Origin: a virus
DNA: 23,643 nt
Virus record (IMG/VR): IMGVR_UViG_3300013010_000074
Span: 1 to 23,643 of that record
Direction: 5' to 3' (one strand)
Made by a program: the position numbers and the translations under genes. Of the stretch, positions 3,259-18,333 are shown in pieces. The notes beneath the pieces are model-generated. The model worked only from the letters and a program-made list of their open reading frames with translations. It did not search any database and had not been told where the DNA came from. Every line of letters starts with the position of its first letter. Position 1 is the stretch's first letter.

Positions 3259-4435
3259 TAATATTTTTGGCGGGAAAGCTGTAGAAGAAAAACTAAATCC
3301 TGCCCAGGAATACTTAGGTATCTCTACAGAAATGTCAAGAGAACCTACTGTCAGCTACGAGCGGCAGTACGAAGAGTTAGAAATTGTTAACCGTGCTGTG
3401 AATATGATTGTAGATGACGCAGCTGAAATTCCTAGTATTATTACTGGTTCCGCAAGACTAAACGGGGTTATCAAAGGCATAAAGAGAACGAAAGTAGACA
3501 GCCTCTTAAATTACGAACCTAACCTTTTTCAAGACGTTAATACCTTTAAGCGTAATCTCATAACAGACTTTATACTTGACGGAAACATATTCATATACTA
3601 CGATGGAGCGCATCTGTATCACCTTCCTTCTAGCAAAGTAGCTATACACGGAAGCAGAGACACTTTTGTTGAGAAGTATACTTTTTCTCAAACAGTAGAC
3701 TATTCACCTAAGGAGATAATTCATATAAAAGAAAACTCCTTTTACTCAATTTACAGAGGAGTACCAAGACTAAGCCCAGCCCTACGAACTATGCAGCTTA
3801 TGGCTTCTATGCGTAAATTCCAAGATAACTTCTTTAAAAACGGAGCCGTCCCAGGCTTAGTACTTAAAAGCCCGAATACCTTATCCGAGAAAATCAAAGA
3901 ACGTATGATTCAGTCTTGGGGTGCACGATACAAGCCGGATGCAGGAGGCAGAAGACCTTTGATTCTTGATGGTGGAATAGACATAGATTCTCTTTCAAAC
4001 ACAAATTTTAAAGATTTAGACTTTCAAAACTCTATAGCAGAAAATGAAAAGATAATTTTGAAGGCGCTCGGAGTCCCTCCAATACTTTTGGACTCTGGTA
4101 ACAACGCTAACATTCGCCCGAATTTACGACTCTACTATTTGGAGACTATACTACCTATAGTACGAAAATTAAACTTTGGGCTCGAGAGATTTTTTGGCTT
4201 CACAATAAAAGAAGATATAACAGATATACCAGCTCTGCAACCTGAATTAAGAGACCAGTCAGCTTATTACACTTCATTAGTAAATGGTGGAATCATCTCC
4301 ACAAATGAAGCGAGAGAGCAACTTGGCTTTGAAGCTATAGAGGGCGGAGAAGAGGTACGAATACCAGCAAACATAGCAGGAAGTGCTGTAAACCCTGACG
4401 TGGGCGGACGCCCAGTCGAAGAAGAGGAAGAATAA
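3245..4435 (+). CDS. portal protein (HK97 family)
   Basis: The product of 396 residues forms the dodecameric vertex channel through which DNA is packaged and to which the connector binds. HK97-family portal features are visible: the stem/wing region with YRGVPRLSPAL at 170-180, FFKNGAVPG at 196-204, then GVPPILLDSGNNANIRP at 276-292 and the long helix RLYYLETILPIVRKL that follows. The length is close to that of HK97 gp3-type portals. The C-terminus ends in a Glu-rich tail. The ATG lies inside the 3' end of the HNH gene in another frame, indicating translational coupling, and the stop abuts the next ATG. Confidence 0.93.
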   Translation: MAWYNNIFGGKAVEEKLNPAQEYLGISTEMSREPTVSYERQYEELEIVNRAVNMIVDDAAEIPSIITGSARLNGVIKGIKRTKVDSLLNYEPNLFQDVNTFKRNLITDFILDGNIFIYYDGAHLYHLPSSKVAIHGSRDTFVEKYTFSQTVDYSPKEIIHIKENSFYSIYRGVPRLSPALRTMQLMASMRKFQDNFFKNGAVPGLVLKSPNTLSEKIKERMIQSWGARYKPDAGGRRPLILDGGIDIDSLSNTNFKDLDFQNSIAENEKIILKALGVPPILLDSGNNANIRPNLRLYYLETILPIVRKLNFGLERFFGFTIKEDITDIPALQPELRDQSAYYTSLVNGGIISTNEAREQLGFEAIEGGEEVRIPANIAGSAVNPDVGGRPVEEEEE

Positions 4436-4750
4436 ATGGCGGGATCGTCAAAGCAAAAGAAAGAGATGGCAGTAAAGATGGCAATGTATTTTGCAGAGAA
4501 TGGATACATTCCTGACCCAAAAGAGTTTGCTGTTGATGTTAAAAGACCTTCAATGTACAAGCTGTCCATTATTAGGAAAATATTTGGATCCTGGTCTATC
4601 ATGGTACAATATACGAAATCTTTTTGTCCCGAAGTAATGCGTGGGATAACTGGTAAAAAGCCTAAGCCTGAGGTTGATCCCTTAGAAGCATTAAAGGCAA
4701 AGCCCGCTGAAACAGCGGAAAGCGAGGTGGTAGATGGAAAAGATATTTAA
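4436..4750 (+). CDS. small protein resembling a homing-endonuclease-associated repeat
   Basis: This 104-residue protein has one helical domain at about residues 10-65 with the pattern NGYIPDPKEF (22-31), then RPSMYKLSIIRKIFGSW (37-53). The arrangement 'G-x-IP ... P-S ... I-x-x-x-FGSW' closely resembles the helix-turn-helix-like repeat found in HNH homing endonucleases and some DNA-binding phage proteins. No HNH or other nuclease motif accompanies it. The C-terminal third is Pro/Lys/Glu-rich and probably disordered. It starts directly after the portal stop with GAGG at 4424-4427 as ribosome binding site, and its end overlaps the protease-capsid gene by 17 nt. A DNA-binding regulatory or head-assembly role is possible; the function is not known. 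Confidence 0.72.
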   Translation: MAGSSKQKKEMAVKMAMYFAENGYIPDPKEFAVDVKRPSMYKLSIIRKIFGSWSIMVQYTKSFCPEVMRGITGKKPKPEVDPLEALKAKPAETAESEVVDGKDI

Positions 4751-6704
4751 TCTCACCTCTACTTTTAAGTCTCATACTGATGATGAAGGCAGCATCATGA
4801 TTCGAGGTATGGCAAGTACTGCTGATTTTGATCGCGCGGGCGATTCTATTTCGGCAGACGCATGGACTAAAGGTGGATTGAATAATTTTGAGAAGAATCC
4901 AATTATTCTTTTCAATCACGATTATAACCGACCAATAGGCAGAGCTACAGGTTTAAAGGCTTCTGGTGAAGGGTTGGAACTTACTGCTAAAATCAGTAAA
5001 GCTGCTAAAGATGTAGCAGAGTTAGTTAAAGACGGTGTTCTTGGGGCCTTTTCTGTTGGTTTTCGAGTCAAGGACGCTGATTATTTAGAGGAAACCGACG
5101 GATTAAGAATAAAGGACGCTGAGTTGTTTGAGGTATCGGTAGTATCAGTACCATGTAATCAATCAGCTACTTTTTCACTAGCGAAATCTTTTGACTCGAT
5201 GGCTGAGTACGAGGATTTCAAAAAAACTTTCACTATTAGTGACGGGACGCAAGTCCAAAAGGAGATACAAATGTCTGAAGAGACAAATCAACCCGTTGAC
5301 TTGGAAGCTTTTGCTAAAAAAGTAGCTGAGGAAACTGCTGCTAAAATTGCAATGAAGCAAGCCGAGCAAAAAGCAGCCGAAGAGGCTGTACAGAGAGAAG
5401 TTGCTGAGAAAGCCGCTGTAGAAGCAGAAGCTAAAGCAGAGCAAGACAAGCAAGTTCAATCAGCAATCGTAACTGGCATTGAGTCAGGTGCAGAACGCCT
5501 CATGGCTGACGTCGAATCTAAAATGTCTGAAAAGGACGCGCAGATCGATGAAATTATGAAGCAACACGAGTCTGACCTCAAAGAGAAGTCTGACGAAATC
5601 GCTAAGATGCGTGATTCCAAGCGAGTTTTTGAAAACCGTGGCGGAAGTGACATGACTAAGTGGGGCAAAGATTTACTCGGCGCTCATATTCTTGGTAAAG
5701 TTACTAAGAAAGGCTGGAATACACAGTATGCCCAGGACATCTTGCAAAAAGCTGGCGTAACTTATGACGCTACTAGCGCAGCTGGTATCGACGTAAACGT
5801 TTCACAAGCATTCGAAGAAGAAGTACGACTTGAGCAGAAGGTTGCTCCTCTCTTCCGAGAAATTCAGGTAGCATCAGGCGCAACTGTAATGCCTATCGCT
5901 CCTGATACCGAGCTTGCTAACTGGAACGGTACAGGCCTTGAAACTGCCAATAACCTTCTCGAAGAGTCAGGTGCATCGGATAACAACTACAATGTTAACC
6001 GAGTATTGCTCCAGGCTTACAGACTGGTTTCTGGTACCTTTATTGCGAATGACACGGATGAGCAGGTAGTTATTAGTATGCTTCCTATCATCACTTCAGC
6101 CATCGCACGAGCACACGCTAAAGCAATTGATTCCGCTATTATGATCGGAAACGGTTCCTTTGCAGGTCTCGTAGGTGGAGCAGGTACTGACGGCGCAGGT
6201 TCATTCCTTGCTGCTGATACAGCTCTTGTAACTGACCCTGATGCATCTGGTACTTCTGATGCGATCACAGGTGCTAACCTGTTGTCAATCCGCTCTGAAA
6301 TGGGCAAGTACGGCATGAATCCTACTGATGTTGCATACATCGTTGGAATTGACCAGTACTACAACCTGATTGCTGATGCAGCCTTCTCTGATGTTTCAGA
6401 AGTTGGTTCAGATACAGCAATGAAGCTGGTTGGACAAGTTGGAAGCATCTACGGTTCACCTGTAATTGCTACTGACGCATTAGCACAAGGTACTAAAGAA
6501 GGCGGCGCCTTCACTGGTACAGCAGCTTGTGCTGTAAACGTACGTAACTATGTTATGCCCCGATTGAAGGGTGTTAGCATCGAGACTGACTACGAAGTAG
6601 CTGGTCAACGCACGGCTATCGTTGCCGCTCAATCACTCGGATTTAACGAGTTGGTTGCTGGCGTAACAAACAACGAGCCTGCAGTACGAATCGAGTATCA
6701 GTAA
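4734..6704 (+). CDS. prohead protease-scaffold-major capsid fusion
   Basis: A single frame of 656 residues combines functions that are separate genes in HK97. Residues 1-150 form an HK97 gp4-like serine protease: LFNHDY with H62, GAFSVGF with S107, and LFEVSVVSVP with E133 match the usual His-Ser-acid pattern. Residues about 185-300 are a highly charged Ala/Glu/Lys coiled coil equivalent to a scaffold or delta domain. From about 305 the sequence is an HK97-fold major capsid protein (DLLGAHIL, then SQAFEEEVRL at 357-366, ending in NEPAVRIEYQ). Cleavage near 300-306 would release a capsid of about 350 residues (inference). The ATG has GAGGTGG at 4724-4730 close upstream. An internal start at 5271 is listed separately. 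Confidence 0.93.
   Translation: MEKIFNLTSTFKSHTDDEGSIMIRGMASTADFDRAGDSISADAWTKGGLNNFEKNPIILFNHDYNRPIGRATGLKASGEGLELTAKISKAAKDVAELVKDGVLGAFSVGFRVKDADYLEETDGLRIKDAELFEVSVVSVPCNQSATFSLAKSFDSMAEYEDFKKTFTISDGTQVQKEIQMSEETNQPVDLEAFAKKVAEETAAKIAMKQAEQKAAEEAVQREVAEKAAVEAEAKAEQDKQVQSAIVTGIESGAERLMADVESKMSEKDAQIDEIMKQHESDLKEKSDEIAKMRDSKRVFENRGGSDMTKWGKDLLGAHILGKVTKKGWNTQYAQDILQKAGVTYDATSAAGIDVNVSQAFEEEVRLEQKVAPLFREIQVASGATVMPIAPDTELANWNGTGLETANNLLEESGASDNNYNVNRVLLQAYRLVSGTFIANDTDEQVVISMLPIITSAIARAHAKAIDSAIMIGNGSFAGLVGGAGTDGAGSFLAADTALVTDPDASGTSDAITGANLLSIRSEMGKYGMNPTDVAYIVGIDQYYNLIADAAFSDVSEVGSDTAMKLVGQVGSIYGSPVIATDALAQGTKEGGAFTGTAACAVNVRNYVMPRLKGVSIETDYEVAGQRTAIVAAQSLGFNELVAGVTNNEPAVRIEYQ
5258..5273 (+). 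promoter_or_regulatory. internal Shine-Dalgarno and ATG for a nested capsid gene
   Basis: AAAGGAG at 5258-5264 stands 6 nt before an in-frame ATG at 5271-5273 (Met180 of the fusion). This is a stronger ribosome binding site than that of most genes in the window, and it lies exactly between the protease domain and the scaffold coiled coil. Confidence 0.75.
5271..6704 (+). CDS. predicted nested scaffold-major capsid protein (internal start)
   Basis: Initiation at Met180 would give a 477-residue protein consisting of the delta/scaffold coiled coil (about 120 residues) and the HK97-fold capsid, the same design as the separate capsid gene of HK97. Evidence is the strong AGGAG site at 5260-5264, the position at the domain boundary, and codon choice: none of the 29 isoleucines from here to the stop uses ATA, whereas 4 of 11 upstream do. 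That fits high expression of this part alone. Nested in-frame head genes with internal starts are known, for example lambda C/Nu3. Whether the full-length fusion, the nested product or both are made cannot be read from sequence. Confidence 0.68.
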   Translation: MSEETNQPVDLEAFAKKVAEETAAKIAMKQAEQKAAEEAVQREVAEKAAVEAEAKAEQDKQVQSAIVTGIESGAERLMADVESKMSEKDAQIDEIMKQHESDLKEKSDEIAKMRDSKRVFENRGGSDMTKWGKDLLGAHILGKVTKKGWNTQYAQDILQKAGVTYDATSAAGIDVNVSQAFEEEVRLEQKVAPLFREIQVASGATVMPIAPDTELANWNGTGLETANNLLEESGASDNNYNVNRVLLQAYRLVSGTFIANDTDEQVVISMLPIITSAIARAHAKAIDSAIMIGNGSFAGLVGGAGTDGAGSFLAADTALVTDPDASGTSDAITGANLLSIRSEMGKYGMNPTDVAYIVGIDQYYNLIADAAFSDVSEVGSDTAMKLVGQVGSIYGSPVIATDALAQGTKEGGAFTGTAACAVNVRNYVMPRLKGVSIETDYEVAGQRTAIVAAQSLGFNELVAGVTNNEPAVRIEYQ

Positions 6705-11006: not shown

Positions 11007-11450
11007 ATGACAGAGCCAAAAACAACAGATATTAAACCACAAGTTTCATTAAAGAGTCTTATGACTCCGAGCAAGACAGTTACCATGGACTTCCCACGAT
11101 TTGAGGGAATGACAGTAGATTTATGCTACTTAGCCCGTGAAGAACTTGTAAAATTGCGGAAAAGGTGTCTTAGTACTAAATGGGATAAGAAGAGTCATCA
11201 GCCAGTTGAAGAAATGGATGATGATAAGTTCATTGTAGAATATTGTAAAGCAGTTATAAAAGGATGGAAAGGCCTAAAATATTCATATCTAGAAGAGCTT
11301 CTATTAGTGGATGTCAGTGACCTTGATCCCGAAGACACTTTACCCTTTACTCCAGATAATTGCGAGCTGTTGATGAAGAATGCAACGGACTTTGATACTT
11401 GGGTAACTGAAATGGTAGGTGACCTCGAAAATTTTACCAAAAACAAGTAG
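11007..11450 (+). CDS. tail assembly chaperone (lambda G-like)
   Basis: This 147-residue acidic protein sits directly upstream of the tape measure gene, where long-tailed phages encode the G / G-T chaperones that coat the tape measure before tube polymerisation. It contains SLMTPSKTVTMDFPRFEGM near the N-terminus, then a helical and acidic C-terminal half (EELLLVDVSDLDPEDTLPF). Identification relies on position, size, acidity and the frameshift signal at its 3' end more than on a sequence motif. It is the first gene behind the promoter at 10950. Confidence 0.85.
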   Translation: MTEPKTTDIKPQVSLKSLMTPSKTVTMDFPRFEGMTVDLCYLAREELVKLRKRCLSTKWDKKSHQPVEEMDDDKFIVEYCKAVIKGWKGLKYSYLEELLLVDVSDLDPEDTLPFTPDNCELLMKNATDFDTWVTEMVGDLENFTKNK

Positions 11451-11471
11451 TAGAGATACAAAAGCTACTTG
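11429..11471 (+). promoter_or_regulatory. programmed -1 ribosomal frameshift signal
   Basis: In the G frame, A_AAT_TTT at 11429-11435 is a canonical X_XXY_YYZ slippery heptamer. Eight bases later CAAGTAG (11444-11450) can pair perfectly with CTACTTG (11465-11471) across a 14-nt loop, a typical stimulatory hairpin; the G stop codon is in the 5' arm. The -1 frame is open from 11423, just after a TGA at 11420-11422, to 11860, so only a shift within this short overlap joins the two frames. Confidence 0.85.
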
Positions 11472-11860
11472 AAAGGTATATACAAGAACAAGGTAGCATA
11501 GACTTAGAGAAATACCTAAGAATATGTGAGCAATTGGGTGAAGAACCGGATCCCGCTAGAATGCCGCTCGACTCTTCTGAATTTCCGGAGGAAGTCCAAG
11601 TGGCATTTTTTATGTTCTCACTTTTATCAGATAGCTGGGATGGAGCCTCGGCATCTTACTTAGGAAAGGAGTGGTCACAGTGTCCTCAACTATTTGCATT
11701 ATATGAAGTAGAAGACCCAAGAACTACAATGTATTTTATGAAACTATACGAAAATTTACTAGTAAAATACAGAATGGAAAAACAAGAGGAAAAAAGAAAA
11801 CAAGCAGAGCGCAGGTCTCAGCAAGGCGGTAAATCATATACCCATAATGTACAGGGCTAA
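11435..11860 (+). CDS. tail assembly chaperone T part, made as G-T frameshift fusion
   Basis: The -1 frame adds 141 residues, beginning YQKQVVEIQKLLERYIQEQG, to the first 143 residues of G, giving a predicted 284-residue G-T protein. T has a long helix, an SSEFPEEVQVAFFMFSLLSD segment and a Lys/Arg/Glu/Gln-rich C-terminal helix; in lambda the T domain recruits tube protein to the tape measure-chaperone complex. The first candidate start codon noticed in this frame is a TTG at 11534 with no ribosome binding site, and well over 30 residues upstream of it in the same frame are intact and protein-like, so expression by frameshifting is far more likely than independent initiation. The TAA overlaps the tape measure ATG as TAATG. 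Confidence 0.82.
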   Translation, partial: YQKQVVEIQKLLERYIQEQGSIDLEKYLRICEQLGEEPDPARMPLDSSEFPEEVQVAFFMFSLLSDSWDGASASYLGKEWSQCPQLFALYEVEDPRTTMYFMKLYENLLVKYRMEKQEEKRKQAERRSQQGGKSYTHNVQG

Positions 11861-14800
11861 TGGCAAAAAATCAAGTATTTATCGATATTGTAATCGACGA
11901 CAAGGGCACAACTAAGCGAGTAGCTGTAGATGCTAAAAAGCTGGGGGTAGAACTTGATAAATCTGCTGCTGCCTCCGAAAAAGGCACGAAGAATACTGAT
12001 AAACTATCCAAATCTACGAAAGACTTAGATAGAAATATGCGTGGAACGGCAAAAATGTCGGGAAACCAAACTAAAGAATTTTCCAAAATGCAACAAGGAA
12101 TGGGGGGTCTTGTAGGTGCTTATGCAACTCTAGCTGCTCAAGTATTCGCCGTATCCGCAGCCTTTCAGTTCTTATCCTCCGCAGCAAATCTTAACAATCT
12201 AATAGCAGGCCAGGAAGCTATGGGATCTGTAACAGGTAGAACATATAAAACTATAACGCAAAGTATTATTGCAGCTACTGATGCACAGCTCAAATATGCT
12301 GATGCAGCAAAAGCTGCGGCAATAGGTTCAGCAGCAGGACTAACAACAGGGCAGCTTACTAAACTAGGTACTGTAGCTAAAAACGCCTCCTTCGCCTTAG
12401 GAAGAGACCTTACTGACTCTTTTAATCGACTTATTCGAGGTGTGACAAAAGCAGAGCCAGAACTACTAGATGAATTGGGTATTATTTTACGCTTAGAGCC
12501 TGCTACTGAAAAATACGCACGTTCTATAGGAGTGGCCAGAACAGAGCTTAATGCTTTTCAAAGAACTCAGGCAGTTACAAATGAAGTGCTTGAGCAAGGA
12601 GAGGTAAAGTTTGCAGCAATAGAAGCAATGATGAGTAAAGATGCTGCTGCTTTAGCACAGTTTACAAAATCTTTTGATGAACTAATAAATACATTAAAAA
12701 GAGGATTAATACAAGGTTTAAATCCTGCACTTAAGTTTTTGAGTGAAAATACTCTGGCACTAGTAGCTGTTCTTGGTTTAGTGGCTATACCTATTGTTAA
12801 ATCTATTTTACCTAATATGGATGCTTTTTTAGATAGAACTAAAAAATTGCAGAGGGCACAAAGTATCGCCCATACAAAACGAAAAAGAGAACTTAAAGAA
12901 GAACAAGCAGCAATAAAAAAATCTATGGTGTCTAACAAAGAGCTTCTTGCTAGTCAGCAGCAACAAGCAGCAGCTACAGCTTCTGATCGTGGTTCAAAAG
13001 TAGGAGCAGGCTTAGGGTTTTTAACTGGTGCAGAAAGTGGAATGGGGGGCAGAGGACAACAGGCTTCTAGAAAAATGTTAGATGATGCCAAAGCTCAAAT
13101 GGTAGAATATGGAGAGATACGAAGAGGACAATTACGTCAGTATAGCGCAGAGGAGCTTAATCAAGCTGAGGCAACTTATCAACAAAAAATAGCAAACGCT
13201 AAAATGAGTGAAAAAGAACTACAGGCGCAAAAGAAACTTACAGCTGCTGAATCTGCAAAACTTAACAAAAAGATGGGAGATGGGTACCAGTCATTTGGTA
13301 CTAGAGTCGTAGGGATTGGGCGTTTGATGGCAAAAGGATTAAATGCTGCTTTTGCAGCTGTTGCTATATTTGGTATGCTTAGTTTAGCTTTTGAGCTTAT
13401 AAAGAAACTTATATCTGTTATGAATCCGCTTACGGAAAAACAAAAAGAAGAGGAAGAGCAAGCAAAAAAGCTTACCGCCGTATACAAACAGTTAAACGAA
13501 GAACTTGAAAGAAATGCAAATGTAAGAAGAGATATGTTGGGCACGGGTGCCAGTCTACAGAATAAAGGTCAAAGCATGCAGGGTATAGACATGAAGAACC
13601 TTATAAATAATATAAATTCGCAAGCTATAGCTGAGGATCAGGGTAGCGAATCATTTTTAGCTGCGCAGAAGCAGATAGAGACGACTATTCAAAAAGCGAT
13701 AGACTTAGATTCTAGGTTTGCAGCCCTTAAAGGAGACTATAAAGATGGTATAATACCTGAAGGTGTTGCTACAAACATGAGAAAATTTGCTAGTGATATT
13801 ATAGAGACAGGACAAAATTTAGGAAACTTACCACAGCAAACGGATAAAGCAGTTAAGAGTTTAGAGGCTTTTGGGGCAAAAGGAGTAAGCAATACTCCTA
13901 TAGAGCAAGCAATAAAGGATTTTACAAATGAAATAGCGTCCTATGATAAAGCGCTTACAGATGTAAGCACGGACGTTACGGCGACAAATGAATTAAAACT
14001 TAAGAAAACCGCCAGAGATACAATAGCTAATATAAAAACCCAAATTGCCAACCTTGATACAGAGTTGGCAGGTATACAAGATTTGGGTCGCGGTGAAAGC
14101 CAAACTAGAGCAGGCTTTAAACGTATCGCCGAAATAAAGAGAGAAAGCCTCGCTTTGAGCGTACAATTAAAAGAAGAAGAAGACGCCATAGGTAAAAATG
14201 TTGACGGACAGATAAAGCTTAAACAAAAAGGAATCGACCTTGATGGGAAGCAAACAGATGCTATAACAGAGAGGAAAACGAAAGCACAAGAAATACTTGA
14301 TATTCTAATAGCAGAAGATAAAAGACAAAAAGCTTCTGATGCAATGCGTAGAAGTCAAGATGCAGCTTTTATACAAACAAGAGCAAAAGGGTTAACTATA
14401 GCAAGTAAAATTTATAATTTAGAAGAAGAGCGTAACAAACTTCAAAAACCTGCTGAAAAAGCATTTGATGACCTAAAAGCAGCAGAGGCGTTCTTAGCTA
14501 CAAGTAATGAGGCAGACGTGAAAGCAAAAAAAGCCGCAGTTAAAGTGGCAAGAGAGAGATTCGAGATTGCAGAAGCTACAAGAGACGAAGGTGAACGTTT
14601 ACTAGACGACAAGGAACGTGAGCTAGAGATAGAGCTTAGTCTACTTAAAATAGCTCAAAAGAGAATAGAACTCTTGGACAAACGATCAAGTTTGCAAAGA
14701 CAGCTTTCATATTCTGAAGGAACTTCAGGCGGTAGTTTAGAGTCTAGGAGTAATATAAGAGATATACAAGGACAATTACTAACCAATGCTCAAACTGAGG

Positions 14801-15852
14801 CTCAAGCAAATTTTAATCTAAAAGCCCCAGGCGAAGCCCTTGTACGAGAACAAATGCTAGCAGATGAGAGATTAGCAAACGGGGGTAGGGCGCTAGATAA
14901 GGAGCAAATAGCAAATGTTGAGACTCAGTTACGACTGAGAGACGAAAGCGCCCATGCAGAAAGAATAGCATTAGAGAACGCTACAAACAATCTTAACATA
15001 CACAACGATGTAAATAAGGCTATCCACGATACAAACAAAGCAAAAATAGAAGGACTAGAATATGATGCTAAAGGGGCAGGCTTTTTAGGAGAAGCAAAAA
15101 TACTTAATGAGCTAATGAGAGATGCTAGATTAGCAAACCCTGACTATGTTTTTAACGAAGCAAACTTAAATAACCTTAAAGAACAAGCGGCAAAAATAAA
15201 CGAATTGACAACGCTAGAGAGTCAAAGGTCTGAGCTTGCTTTAAGTATACAAGGAGGAATGGAAACAGCATTTATGTCTATAATTGATGGAAGTAAGAAT
15301 GCTAAACAAGCCTTCGGAGATATGGCTAGATCTATACTTGCTTCTATAGCTCAAATGATAGTTCAAATGCTGGTGCTTAAAATGTTGCAAACTGCGATGC
15401 CCAGTTTATTTGGTAAATCAGGAGGAACTACTACACCAGACGGGGTCCCTATGGGTAGGGGGGAACAATACGCAGGATACGCAAAAAAGGGAGGAATATT
15501 TGGTCCGTCTTACGCAGGTGGAGGTTATGGATTAAAGAAAAATAACTTCTCAAGAGGCGGAATGGCAAGAGGAGCCCAGTCGGGGTATGCAGCAACTCTT
15601 CATGGAAACGAAGCAGTAGTCCCACTTCCTGACAATCGCAGTATTCCTGTAACTTTAAACGGTGCAGGAGGGCAAAACAATAATGTAACAGTAAATGTTG
15701 CTATGGATTCTTCTGGAAATGTTTCTCAGAATTCACAGCAAGATGGAGCACAAGCAGGTAAGTTAGGCAGTATGATAGCTGCTGCAGTACAGCAAGAACT
15801 CCAGTTCCAGAAACGATCAGGCGGTATACTTAATCCGTACGGAGTATCATAA
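11860..15852 (+). CDS. tail tape measure protein
   Basis: At 1330 residues this is the longest complete gene. It sets tail length: at about 0.15 nm per residue it predicts a tail near 200 nm. Long stretches are Lys/Glu/Ala/Gln-rich helix or coiled coil (for example 330-480 and 520-1150). Hydrophobic segments at about 83-107, 299-317, 494-520 and 1155-1185 could enter the host membrane during DNA injection. The C-terminus is typical of the family: glycine-rich GGGYGLKKNNFSRGGMARGA near 1217-1236, then HGNEAVVPLPDNRSIPV near 1248. No peptidoglycan hydrolase motif is evident. It is translationally coupled to the chaperone region upstream and to the minor tail gene downstream (TAATG at both ends). 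Confidence 0.95.
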   Translation: MAKNQVFIDIVIDDKGTTKRVAVDAKKLGVELDKSAAASEKGTKNTDKLSKSTKDLDRNMRGTAKMSGNQTKEFSKMQQGMGGLVGAYATLAAQVFAVSAAFQFLSSAANLNNLIAGQEAMGSVTGRTYKTITQSIIAATDAQLKYADAAKAAAIGSAAGLTTGQLTKLGTVAKNASFALGRDLTDSFNRLIRGVTKAEPELLDELGIILRLEPATEKYARSIGVARTELNAFQRTQAVTNEVLEQGEVKFAAIEAMMSKDAAALAQFTKSFDELINTLKRGLIQGLNPALKFLSENTLALVAVLGLVAIPIVKSILPNMDAFLDRTKKLQRAQSIAHTKRKRELKEEQAAIKKSMVSNKELLASQQQQAAATASDRGSKVGAGLGFLTGAESGMGGRGQQASRKMLDDAKAQMVEYGEIRRGQLRQYSAEELNQAEATYQQKIANAKMSEKELQAQKKLTAAESAKLNKKMGDGYQSFGTRVVGIGRLMAKGLNAAFAAVAIFGMLSLAFELIKKLISVMNPLTEKQKEEEEQAKKLTAVYKQLNEELERNANVRRDMLGTGASLQNKGQSMQGIDMKNLINNINSQAIAEDQGSESFLAAQKQIETTIQKAIDLDSRFAALKGDYKDGIIPEGVATNMRKFASDIIETGQNLGNLPQQTDKAVKSLEAFGAKGVSNTPIEQAIKDFTNEIASYDKALTDVSTDVTATNELKLKKTARDTIANIKTQIANLDTELAGIQDLGRGESQTRAGFKRIAEIKRESLALSVQLKEEEDAIGKNVDGQIKLKQKGIDLDGKQTDAITERKTKAQEILDILIAEDKRQKASDAMRRSQDAAFIQTRAKGLTIASKIYNLEEERNKLQKPAEKAFDDLKAAEAFLATSNEADVKAKKAAVKVARERFEIAEATRDEGERLLDDKERELEIELSLLKIAQKRIELLDKRSSLQRQLSYSEGTSGGSLESRSNIRDIQGQLLTNAQTEAQANFNLKAPGEALVREQMLADERLANGGRALDKEQIANVETQLRLRDESAHAERIALENATNNLNIHNDVNKAIHDTNKAKIEGLEYDAKGAGFLGEAKILNELMRDARLANPDYVFNEANLNNLKEQAAKINELTTLESQRSELALSIQGGMETAFMSIIDGSKNAKQAFGDMARSILASIAQMIVQMLVLKMLQTAMPSLFGKSGGTTTPDGVPMGRGEQYAGYAKKGGIFGPSYAGGGYGLKKNNFSRGGMARGAQSGYAATLHGNEAVVPLPDNRSIPVTLNGAGGQNNNVTVNVAMDSSGNVSQNSQQDGAQAGKLGSMIAAAVQQELQFQKRSGGILNPYGVS

Positions 15853-16448: not shown

Positions 16449-17635
16449 GTAACGAATTAGCAACCGACCAGCTAAAACAAGAAATAGATAGCGGTCTTTT
16501 AGAATTTTTTGAGCTTACCATAGGAGCAGGTAGTAATAATACCCTGTACTTTCATGATGGGAAAAAAGAAAACTTAGATGATGTTACTTTTGACGGCAAT
16601 ACCTATGTAGCTTTACCAATTATGATGGAGGGGATGGAATTAAAAGCGGATGGAGCAATGAGCCGACCTACTCTTACAATAGCAAATGTAGAGTCAATTT
16701 TAAAGTCCGGGTCTAAGTTCAAAACTCAAATGGAAGACGGTACTTGGGGAGCCACAGTAAATAGTGAGCCTCTGGTAGCAACCGATTTTAAATTAGACCA
16801 TTTAGTCGGAGCAACTATCGTAAAAAGAAAAACCTTAGAAAAGTATTTAAGCAGTAGTCCTATAATAGAGTTTGAAAAAGACGAATATATTATTGATCGA
16901 ATTAGTGAAAAGACTAATACTTTTGTAACTTTAGAGCTTGCCTCTCCTTTTGACTTAGGAGGAATAAGAGTCCCAAATAGAGTTGTAATAGGAAAATACT
17001 GTCCCTGGGTATATCAAGGTGCCCGTCCAGATGTTGCTGAAGCAGACAGAGTAGGCGCATGTAACTGGAAAAAAGAGAATCAAAAGCTAAACGGCAGTTC
17101 AAGAGTAAGTGTGTTTGTGTCACAAAATGACGAGCCTATGTTTCTTAAAAGTGCGGTAGAAGGGCTTGGTACAGGAGTGTACCATACTAGTAAACAAACT
17201 TCTCATGATTTAGATGATTTTGTTAAAACTGGAGATTTATATTATCAGTCACGCGACGATAGCAATACAGCTGCTTTAACAAGTACAGCGCTGTGGAAAG
17301 TAGTTATAGTATATACAGAGTGGTCAAGTGACTCAGGAAGTGCAAATTATACTATAGATATTGACCAAAGAAAAAACTCTTATGTGTACCATGCAAATAC
17401 TGTTTGGAAATGTGTAATTGCACATACTAAAAATAGTAACTTTGAGCCCGCTTTAGACTCTCGACATTGGGTACGCGCAGATCTTTGTGGTAAGTTACTA
17501 GCTTCTTGTAAGCAACGATACCAAGCAAAGGGCATAAATAATGCTTCAGGAAGAAACTTTATAGCATCAGACAAAGCAAATACACAGGCAATTTTACCTT
17601 TTGGAGGCTTCCCAGGAAGTAGAAAGTTTAGATAG
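16445..17635 (+). CDS. minor tail protein L-like, Fe-S type, with inserted binding-like domain
   Basis: This 396-residue protein is a lambda gpL homologue, a tail-tip protein that binds a [4Fe-4S] cluster through four cysteines. The N-terminal beta domain (LEFFELTIGAG, YVALPIMMEGMEL, RPTLTIANVES) and VTLELASPFDLGGIRVPNR at 161-179 are characteristic. Candidate cluster ligands are C186 (GKYCPWVY), C206 (GACNWKK), C348 (LCGK) and C355 (ASCKQR), ending in LPFGGFPGSRKF. About 140 residues lie between the second and third cysteine, much more than usual. They include YVYHANTVWKCVIAHTK and EPALDSRHWVRAD (about 313-346), which looks like a carbohydrate-binding (CBM5/12-like) module. C323 belongs to this insert and is not expected to bind the cluster. 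Confidence 0.88.
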   Translation: MSNELATDQLKQEIDSGLLEFFELTIGAGSNNTLYFHDGKKENLDDVTFDGNTYVALPIMMEGMELKADGAMSRPTLTIANVESILKSGSKFKTQMEDGTWGATVNSEPLVATDFKLDHLVGATIVKRKTLEKYLSSSPIIEFEKDEYIIDRISEKTNTFVTLELASPFDLGGIRVPNRVVIGKYCPWVYQGARPDVAEADRVGACNWKKENQKLNGSSRVSVFVSQNDEPMFLKSAVEGLGTGVYHTSKQTSHDLDDFVKTGDLYYQSRDDSNTAALTSTALWKVVIVYTEWSSDSGSANYTIDIDQRKNSYVYHANTVWKCVIAHTKNSNFEPALDSRHWVRADLCGKLLASCKQRYQAKGINNASGRNFIASDKANTQAILPFGGFPGSRKFR

Positions 17636-18333
17636 TGAAATTTTTAGAAGATATACGAGAACATTTTGAAAAGGAATATCCACGCGAAGGCTGTGGTATT
17701 ATAACAGTTAAAAAGGGAAAGAAAAGGTGGATACCTTGTAACAATATAGCAGAAGGCGACGAGCATTTTATAATTGATGTTCAGCAGTATTTAAAAGCTC
17801 TAAGAACAAGTGATATTATAGGAATAGTGCATAGTCATCCAGATGGCACTAGCGAAGCGAGCGAAATGGATATTAATAACTGTAATACTTTAGGAAAAGA
17901 TTATTACATTTTTAGCTACCCAGAAATGGATTTAAATATAATACACCCTGAAGTTTCTACTATGGATCTATATGGCAGAGAGTACGAATTTGGTGTTACT
18001 GATTGTTTTGAAGCAATGAGAGATTATTTAATGCAGCAAGGTACAGAGATACCTACTCGTGCCTTATTTAAAGATGACTGGCTTGATAAAGGATATGATT
18101 ATTTTTCGGACGAAACTATTGAATACTGGAACCATTATCCCGTCAGCTTAAATGATATACAAGAAAACGATGTTTTAGTTTTCTCAGTATTGTCGGATAA
18201 AAACAACCATTGTGGAGTTTATATTGGAAATGATATATTTTATCATCATGCAGACAATAGACTCTCGTGTAGAGAAAACTTATACCCTTTGTGGCACAAA
18301 TACTTAAGAGGAGCTTACAGACATGCAGCGTAA
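17635..18333 (+). CDS. tail tip peptidase K-like (JAMM + NlpC/P60)
   Basis: The 232-residue protein is organised like lambda gpK. The N-terminal JAB/MPN+ domain shows YPREGCG with E18 and the metal motif HSHPDGTSEASEMD at 66-79 (H66, H68, D79 with the exact H-x-H-x10-D spacing). The C-terminal NlpC/P60 domain shows VTDCFEAMRDYL with catalytic C124 and NNHCGVYIGND with H192. In related phages such proteins take part in tail-tip assembly or cleave cell-wall peptides at infection. The start is GTG, overlapping the L stop as TAGTG; there is only a weak purine stretch upstream, so coupling is likely. All key residues are present in both domains. Confidence 0.92.
   Translation: MKFLEDIREHFEKEYPREGCGIITVKKGKKRWIPCNNIAEGDEHFIIDVQQYLKALRTSDIIGIVHSHPDGTSEASEMDINNCNTLGKDYYIFSYPEMDLNIIHPEVSTMDLYGREYEFGVTDCFEAMRDYLMQQGTEIPTRALFKDDWLDKGYDYFSDETIEYWNHYPVSLNDIQENDVLVFSVLSDKNNHCGVYIGNDIFYHHADNRLSCRENLYPLWHKYLRGAYRHAA

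Follow-up and report, generated by a model that had tools for sequence, protein, structure and literature searches.

The DNA analysed here, referred to as the window, is the whole 23,643-nt stretch of the virus record IMGVR_UViG_3300013010_000074, a fragment of a marine siphophage whose relatives are marine contigs. Its gene order includes terminase, portal, a protease-major capsid fusion, connectors, tail terminator, major tail protein, a chaperone pair, tape measure protein, and lambda-like tail tip genes. The chaperone pair is located between the major tail protein gene and the tape measure gene and consists of a short open reading frame, G, which is overlapped by a second frame, T; all features of the locus described below are on the plus strand. 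Gene G (11007-11450) encodes a tail assembly chaperone of 147 amino acids as its zero-frame product and ends with the TAG stop codon at 11448-11450. It matches phrog_313 (E 3e-11) and shares about 28-39% identity with its homologue in T5-like phages. The T frame lies at -1 with respect to G. It is open between 11423 and 11860, with a TGA directly before 11423, and overlaps G by 28 nt including the G stop codon or 25 nt without it. The T domain that would be read after a slip (11435-11860, 141 amino acids) matches phrog_3914 (E 7e-16). In the profile search, both families carry the label "tail assembly chaperone". Among solved structures, the G profile matched one chain only weakly (6m6z, named TMH4C4, E 3e-4), and the T profile matched ribosomal S24 only, with an E value above 0.01. 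The tape measure protein encoded next (11860-15852, 1330 amino acids, phrog_3779, E 3e-40) is the presumed client of G and the G-T fusion (GT).

Several further features of the window were recorded. The head maturation protease (Peptidase_S78) and the major capsid protein appear to be fused in a single open reading frame of 656 amino acids at 4734-6704. A protein of 192 amino acids at 548-1126 matches phrog_1158, which is also labelled tail assembly chaperone, and Pfam DUF1353; as its gene is remote from the tail genes, well upstream of them, this label is doubtful. The tail tip protein at 17635-18333, which carries JAB peptidase and NlpC/P60 domains, resembles lambda K, and its neighbours resemble lambda L and I. 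These genes are adjacent to T5-like chaperone and terminator genes, so that lambda-like and T5-like tail modules form a mosaic.

The slippery heptamer and the reading of T

A first-pass annotation, made from the sequence of the window, had proposed that G and T are joined by a -1 frameshift at an A_AAT_TTT heptamer within the only 25 bases in which the two frames overlap. We found the heptamer as described, at 11429-11435 and in the G register, with the Asn codon in the P site and the Phe codon in the A site. The residue count (143 + 141) likewise agrees with the 284-residue fusion and the F-Y junction that the annotation had predicted. The bare count of AAATTTT was rejected as evidence, as the window contains 10 copies compared to 10.7 expected and is therefore not enriched. 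Heptamers of the type X_XXY_YYZ in register occur 47 times in the 7432 codon steps of the window, i.e. about once per 158 codons, and about 0.05 would be expected by chance across the 8 steps of the overlap. Of these 47, the heptamer at 11429 alone leads into a long -1 frame, of 143 codons; the runner-up reaches 30. After the other in-register copies of A_AAT_TTT, at 4003 and 14808, a stop codon is reached within 2 codons.

In order to assess conservation, related loci were drawn from viral contigs, phages, and a few genome contigs, and duplicate sites were removed. Both G and T were present at 213 distinct sites, with T in the -1 frame at 176 and in the +1 frame at 37 of them. A_AAT_TTT was found at 175 of the 176 -1 sites. 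The codons GAA-AAT-TTT are invariant in all 175 of these sites, which are related to one another, so that their number overstates their independence; elsewhere in the same genes, GAA, AAT, and TTT account for 69%, 69%, and 80% of the synonymous choices, respectively. Unlike these three codons, a neighbouring invariant Leu is encoded by all six of its codons. The conservation of the heptamer settles that the observation is real and beyond chance. A scan of GTDB genomes returned only three MAG contigs with the locus; these are probably phage contigs binned with hosts, and we therefore make no host call from them.

An independent start of T, within the overlap or downstream of it, would turn T into a separate gene and the heptamer into a coincidence, and most records of T5-like phages do annotate T as a separate open reading frame with a later start. 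In the window, however, the T frame contains no ATG, GTG, or TTG before 11534 (only ATA), which leaves 37 codons of conserved sequence without a usual start codon, and no Shine-Dalgarno-like motif was found in 11401-11560. The conserved T sequence LEKYLRICEQLG precedes the first possible start at 11534, which itself falls within a conserved motif. A separate T gene would also leave the invariant synonymous codons unexplained. We therefore rejected an independent T start, and the idea of a separate gene, already largely refuted, retains hardly any probability.

The downstream hairpin and the proposed -1 shift

The heptamer is followed by a spacer of 8 nt, ACCAAAAA (11436-11443), and by a predicted stimulatory hairpin, whose 5' arm (11444-11451) contains the G stop codon and whose 3' arm (11464-11471) lies within coding sequence used by T only. 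The stem comprises 8 bp, of which 7 are Watson-Crick pairs and one is a G.U pair, and encloses a loop of 12 nt. The spacer length and the burial of the G stop codon in the stem had both been noted correctly in the first-pass annotation. The hairpin it had described as a perfect 7-bp stem is likewise present, but has 8 bp including the G.U pair. The stem, which it had called unusually clear, is a general feature of the clade rather than one of this phage alone. The region 11436-11500 folds with a minimum free energy of -9.2 kcal/mol (z -2.1), and equal stability was reached in 6 of 200 shuffles. As for protein coding alone, 1-3% of synonymous recodings match the stem of the window.

Across the 175 sites, the best stem begins after exactly 8 nt in 77, lies on one diagonal in 140, and overlaps the G stop codon in 168. 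When 1596 column pairs were ranked by paired double changes, the stem pairs 15-28, 16-27, and 14-29 came first, fourth, and eighth, and pair 15-28 again took first place by corrected mutual information. The stem is reflected in codon choice as well: TAA stop codons occur together with distant Leu codons beginning with T in 19 of 22 cases, TAG with Leu codons beginning with C in 110 of 139. The Leu codon at +32 is CTT in 129 of the 175 sites, compared to 19% of background Leu codons. When the T-only part was recoded synonymously, the natural structure proved the more stable, with a mean z of -2.83 over 147 sites. Finally, the stem has been relocated several times; the 3' arm is nearer in the group of locus L044, and both arms are further downstream in those of L181 and L162.

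These data bear on the question whether the frameshift is real while the hairpin is a mere by-product of dual coding and codon bias. The arms do encode conserved Gln/Val and Leu residues, A_AAT_TTT could slip unaided, and the +1 sites described below lack a conserved hairpin. However, the stem exceeds its synonymous recodings, compensatory changes form the strongest of all column pairs, and the hairpin has stayed present despite having moved several times, so that we regard a by-product as very unlikely. Rather, the covariation and the recodings support a hairpin that has been selected beyond coding and kept by compensatory changes. Whether sequestration of the stop codon is itself required is a further point: spacer length alone places the usual stop (at +12) within stems starting at +5 to +10, and the two effects are not separable. 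In most lineages in which the stop has moved to +21, the stem has moved too, which weakly favours sequestration as a plausible requirement.

On the basis of the protein families, the gene order, the invariant heptamer, and the covarying stem, the proposal of a -1 frameshift for the G/GT tail chaperone is well supported by sequence. It is very probable that a programmed -1 ribosomal frameshift yields two products from one start, G of 147 amino acids and, at lower yield, the 284-residue G-T fusion. The tRNA-Asn on AAT in the P site and the tRNA-Phe on TTT in the A site would slip back by one base to AAA and TTT, while the hairpin 8 nt downstream would hold the ribosome at the heptamer and bury the zero-frame stop codon. 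Shifted ribosomes would then continue along the T frame. By analogy to lambda, G and GT may coat the tape measure protein, with the T part recruiting tail-tube subunits. It is the occurrence of slippage, its efficiency, and the chaperone role that we infer here. A point against the mechanism is that P-site re-pairing from AAT to AAA leaves a wobble mismatch.

The fusion might instead be made by transcriptional slippage, considering that the site is a short A4T4 run, or by another route such as stop codon readthrough and re-initiation at the sequestered stop, which does sit in the stem. However, with only four A and four T, the runs are short ones for polymerase slippage. The X_XXY_YYZ register is exact, and in most sites the hairpin follows at a ribosome-like distance of 5-10 nt. 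In addition, a second -1 clade (see below) uses A_AAA_AAC, another classic ribosomal heptamer. Such routes thus appear highly improbable compared to ribosomal frameshifting.

The apparent +1 sites of T5-like and marine relatives

In T5-like phages (Demerecviridae), the G homologue can be read as far as NF or TF, after which comes CG(T/A), and the T sequence is continued in the +1 frame. Like the window, these phages have homologous G and T genes whose fusion alignment is co-linear between the clades, and the shift maps to the same Phe, which is invariant; unlike the window, they carry TTT_CG(T/A) and no conserved hairpin. The window itself, with TTT_ACC and T in the -1 frame, is a homologue only and does not belong to the T5-like +1 class. 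Six marine contigs of the first set have the same TTT_CGN with T in +1. In a further set of distinct marine sites, T was in the +1 frame in 66 of 66, always with TTT and always followed by CGN; AGA never follows TTT in this set, though it is the commonest Arg codon in those genes. The downstream structure also differs, with a mean z of -3.19 at A_AAT_TTT sites compared to -0.06 at the marine +1 sites, and the conserved hairpin was absent at the +1 sites.

Two GenBank records of this group, KP143763 (Shivani) and MH631454 (Sw2), contain a joined CDS annotated as "tape measure chaperone", and the arithmetic of their lengths indicates +1, as 832 - 1 and 835 - 1 are divisible by three. The T5-like records L151, L152, L155, and L250 show the conserved TTT_CGT/CGA followed by T in +1, and in most records T is entered as a hypothetical protein of its own. 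From the frame, the codon conservation, and the two GenBank joins, the T5-like phages appear to use +1 slippage at the homologous Phe codon, although a -2 shift would give the same frame. A comparable site is known from influenza A, where the +1 shift of PA-X at UCC_UUU_CGU was explained by slippage of the P-site tRNA-Phe from UUU to UUC, and a wider UUU_C class has been predicted (PMC3498833). UUU_CGN is common to both, while gene and host are unrelated, and the analogy holds for the T5-like side only and not for the window. According to the genome announcement of the T5-like phage Sugarland, neither this phage nor T5 has a predicted frameshift signal here (PMC6256483). With TTT_CGN, the T5-like phages now have a concrete, conserved +1 candidate where at least one paper had listed no predicted signal.

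Direction of the shift within the chaperone family

A further clade was reached from the related locus L275. Its genes belong to the same family (phrog_313 and phrog_3914), and 39 distinct sites in it show -1 at A_AAA_AAC. This site is shifted some codons downstream, and many of the sites have hairpins. In this clade (L322-L385), the stop codon often lies directly after the heptamer, with a downstream stem of the ACCTCC/GGAGGT type. The first-pass annotation had named homologues with G and T fused in frame without the heptamer as evidence against its proposal. Such homologues were generally not found, apart from two isolated contigs that read G and T in one frame and belong to the A_AAA_AAC group (L324:1501-2260 and L386:1501-2190). 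L324 is 93% like L275, and its in-frame reading is probably due to an indel; L386 is without about 25 residues of the G C-terminus. The two could be assembly errors or real fused forms.

In a tree of 42 representatives, each site type forms one side of a branch and the site type changes twice, while the direction of the shift changes once, with a support of 98/91. An earlier tree of 61 rows likewise showed one change of direction. The 42-representative tree was midpoint-rooted and does not fix the ancestral direction, so that to call +1 ancestral would be a guess. When the aligned fusions were inspected (YWEQ or YQKQ compared to VQEQ), the bases taken up by the first T residue after the zero-frame TTT numbered two in the -1 clade but four in the +1 clade; a net two-base change just after TTT would therefore interconvert the two directions. 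The most likely history is a single reversal of direction via such a change after the Phe codon, with the hairpin present on the -1 side. Taken together, it is likely that these orthologous chaperones reversed the direction of frameshifting at the same Phe codon, by a net two-base change after it. The T5-like phages and their marine sister clade would use a hairpin-free +1 P-site slippage on UUU_CGN and the clade of the window a hairpin-stimulated -1 tandem slippage on A_AAU_UUU, with the fusion remaining co-linear, while the third clade would shift -1 at A_AAA_AAC further downstream.

Frameshifting of the G/GT type is of a known kind, and many tailed phages use a backward slip by one base to produce their two tail chaperones. 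In lambda, gpG and gpGT are produced by a low-level -1 shift (Xu, Hendrix and Duda 2004, as reviewed in PMC5009743). As in lambda, the tape measure gene of the locus studied here is preceded by a short chaperone gene, close to the 3' end of which the shift leads into a fused T domain. The locus differs from lambda in its heptamer, A_AAT_TTT instead of GGGAAAG (lambda heptamer as given in the first-pass annotation), and in its hairpin, which is conserved, covaries, and encloses the G stop codon. In addition, the proteins of the window belong to the T5-like phrog_313/phrog_3914 family. Shifts of +1, -1, and -2 are also known in functionally equivalent phage genes, such as the capsid genes of PSA compared to A118/A500, the -2 of Mu, and the +1 of HSTV-2 (PMC5009743). 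Unlike in these cases, the switch described here is traced within one homologous family to one codon and one branch, and is coupled to the presence of the hairpin. The new part is this comparative switch of direction; in the open-access literature, we found no earlier description of a homologous gene in which the direction was reversed at one and the same codon.

Overall, the switch suggests that selection acts on having the fusion at a set ratio and not on the mechanism by which it is made. It also provides a natural series within one homologous gene, with +1 sites without a hairpin and -1 sites with a hairpin that holds the stop codon, and thus hundreds of sequences in which the determinants of frameshift efficiency can be tested.
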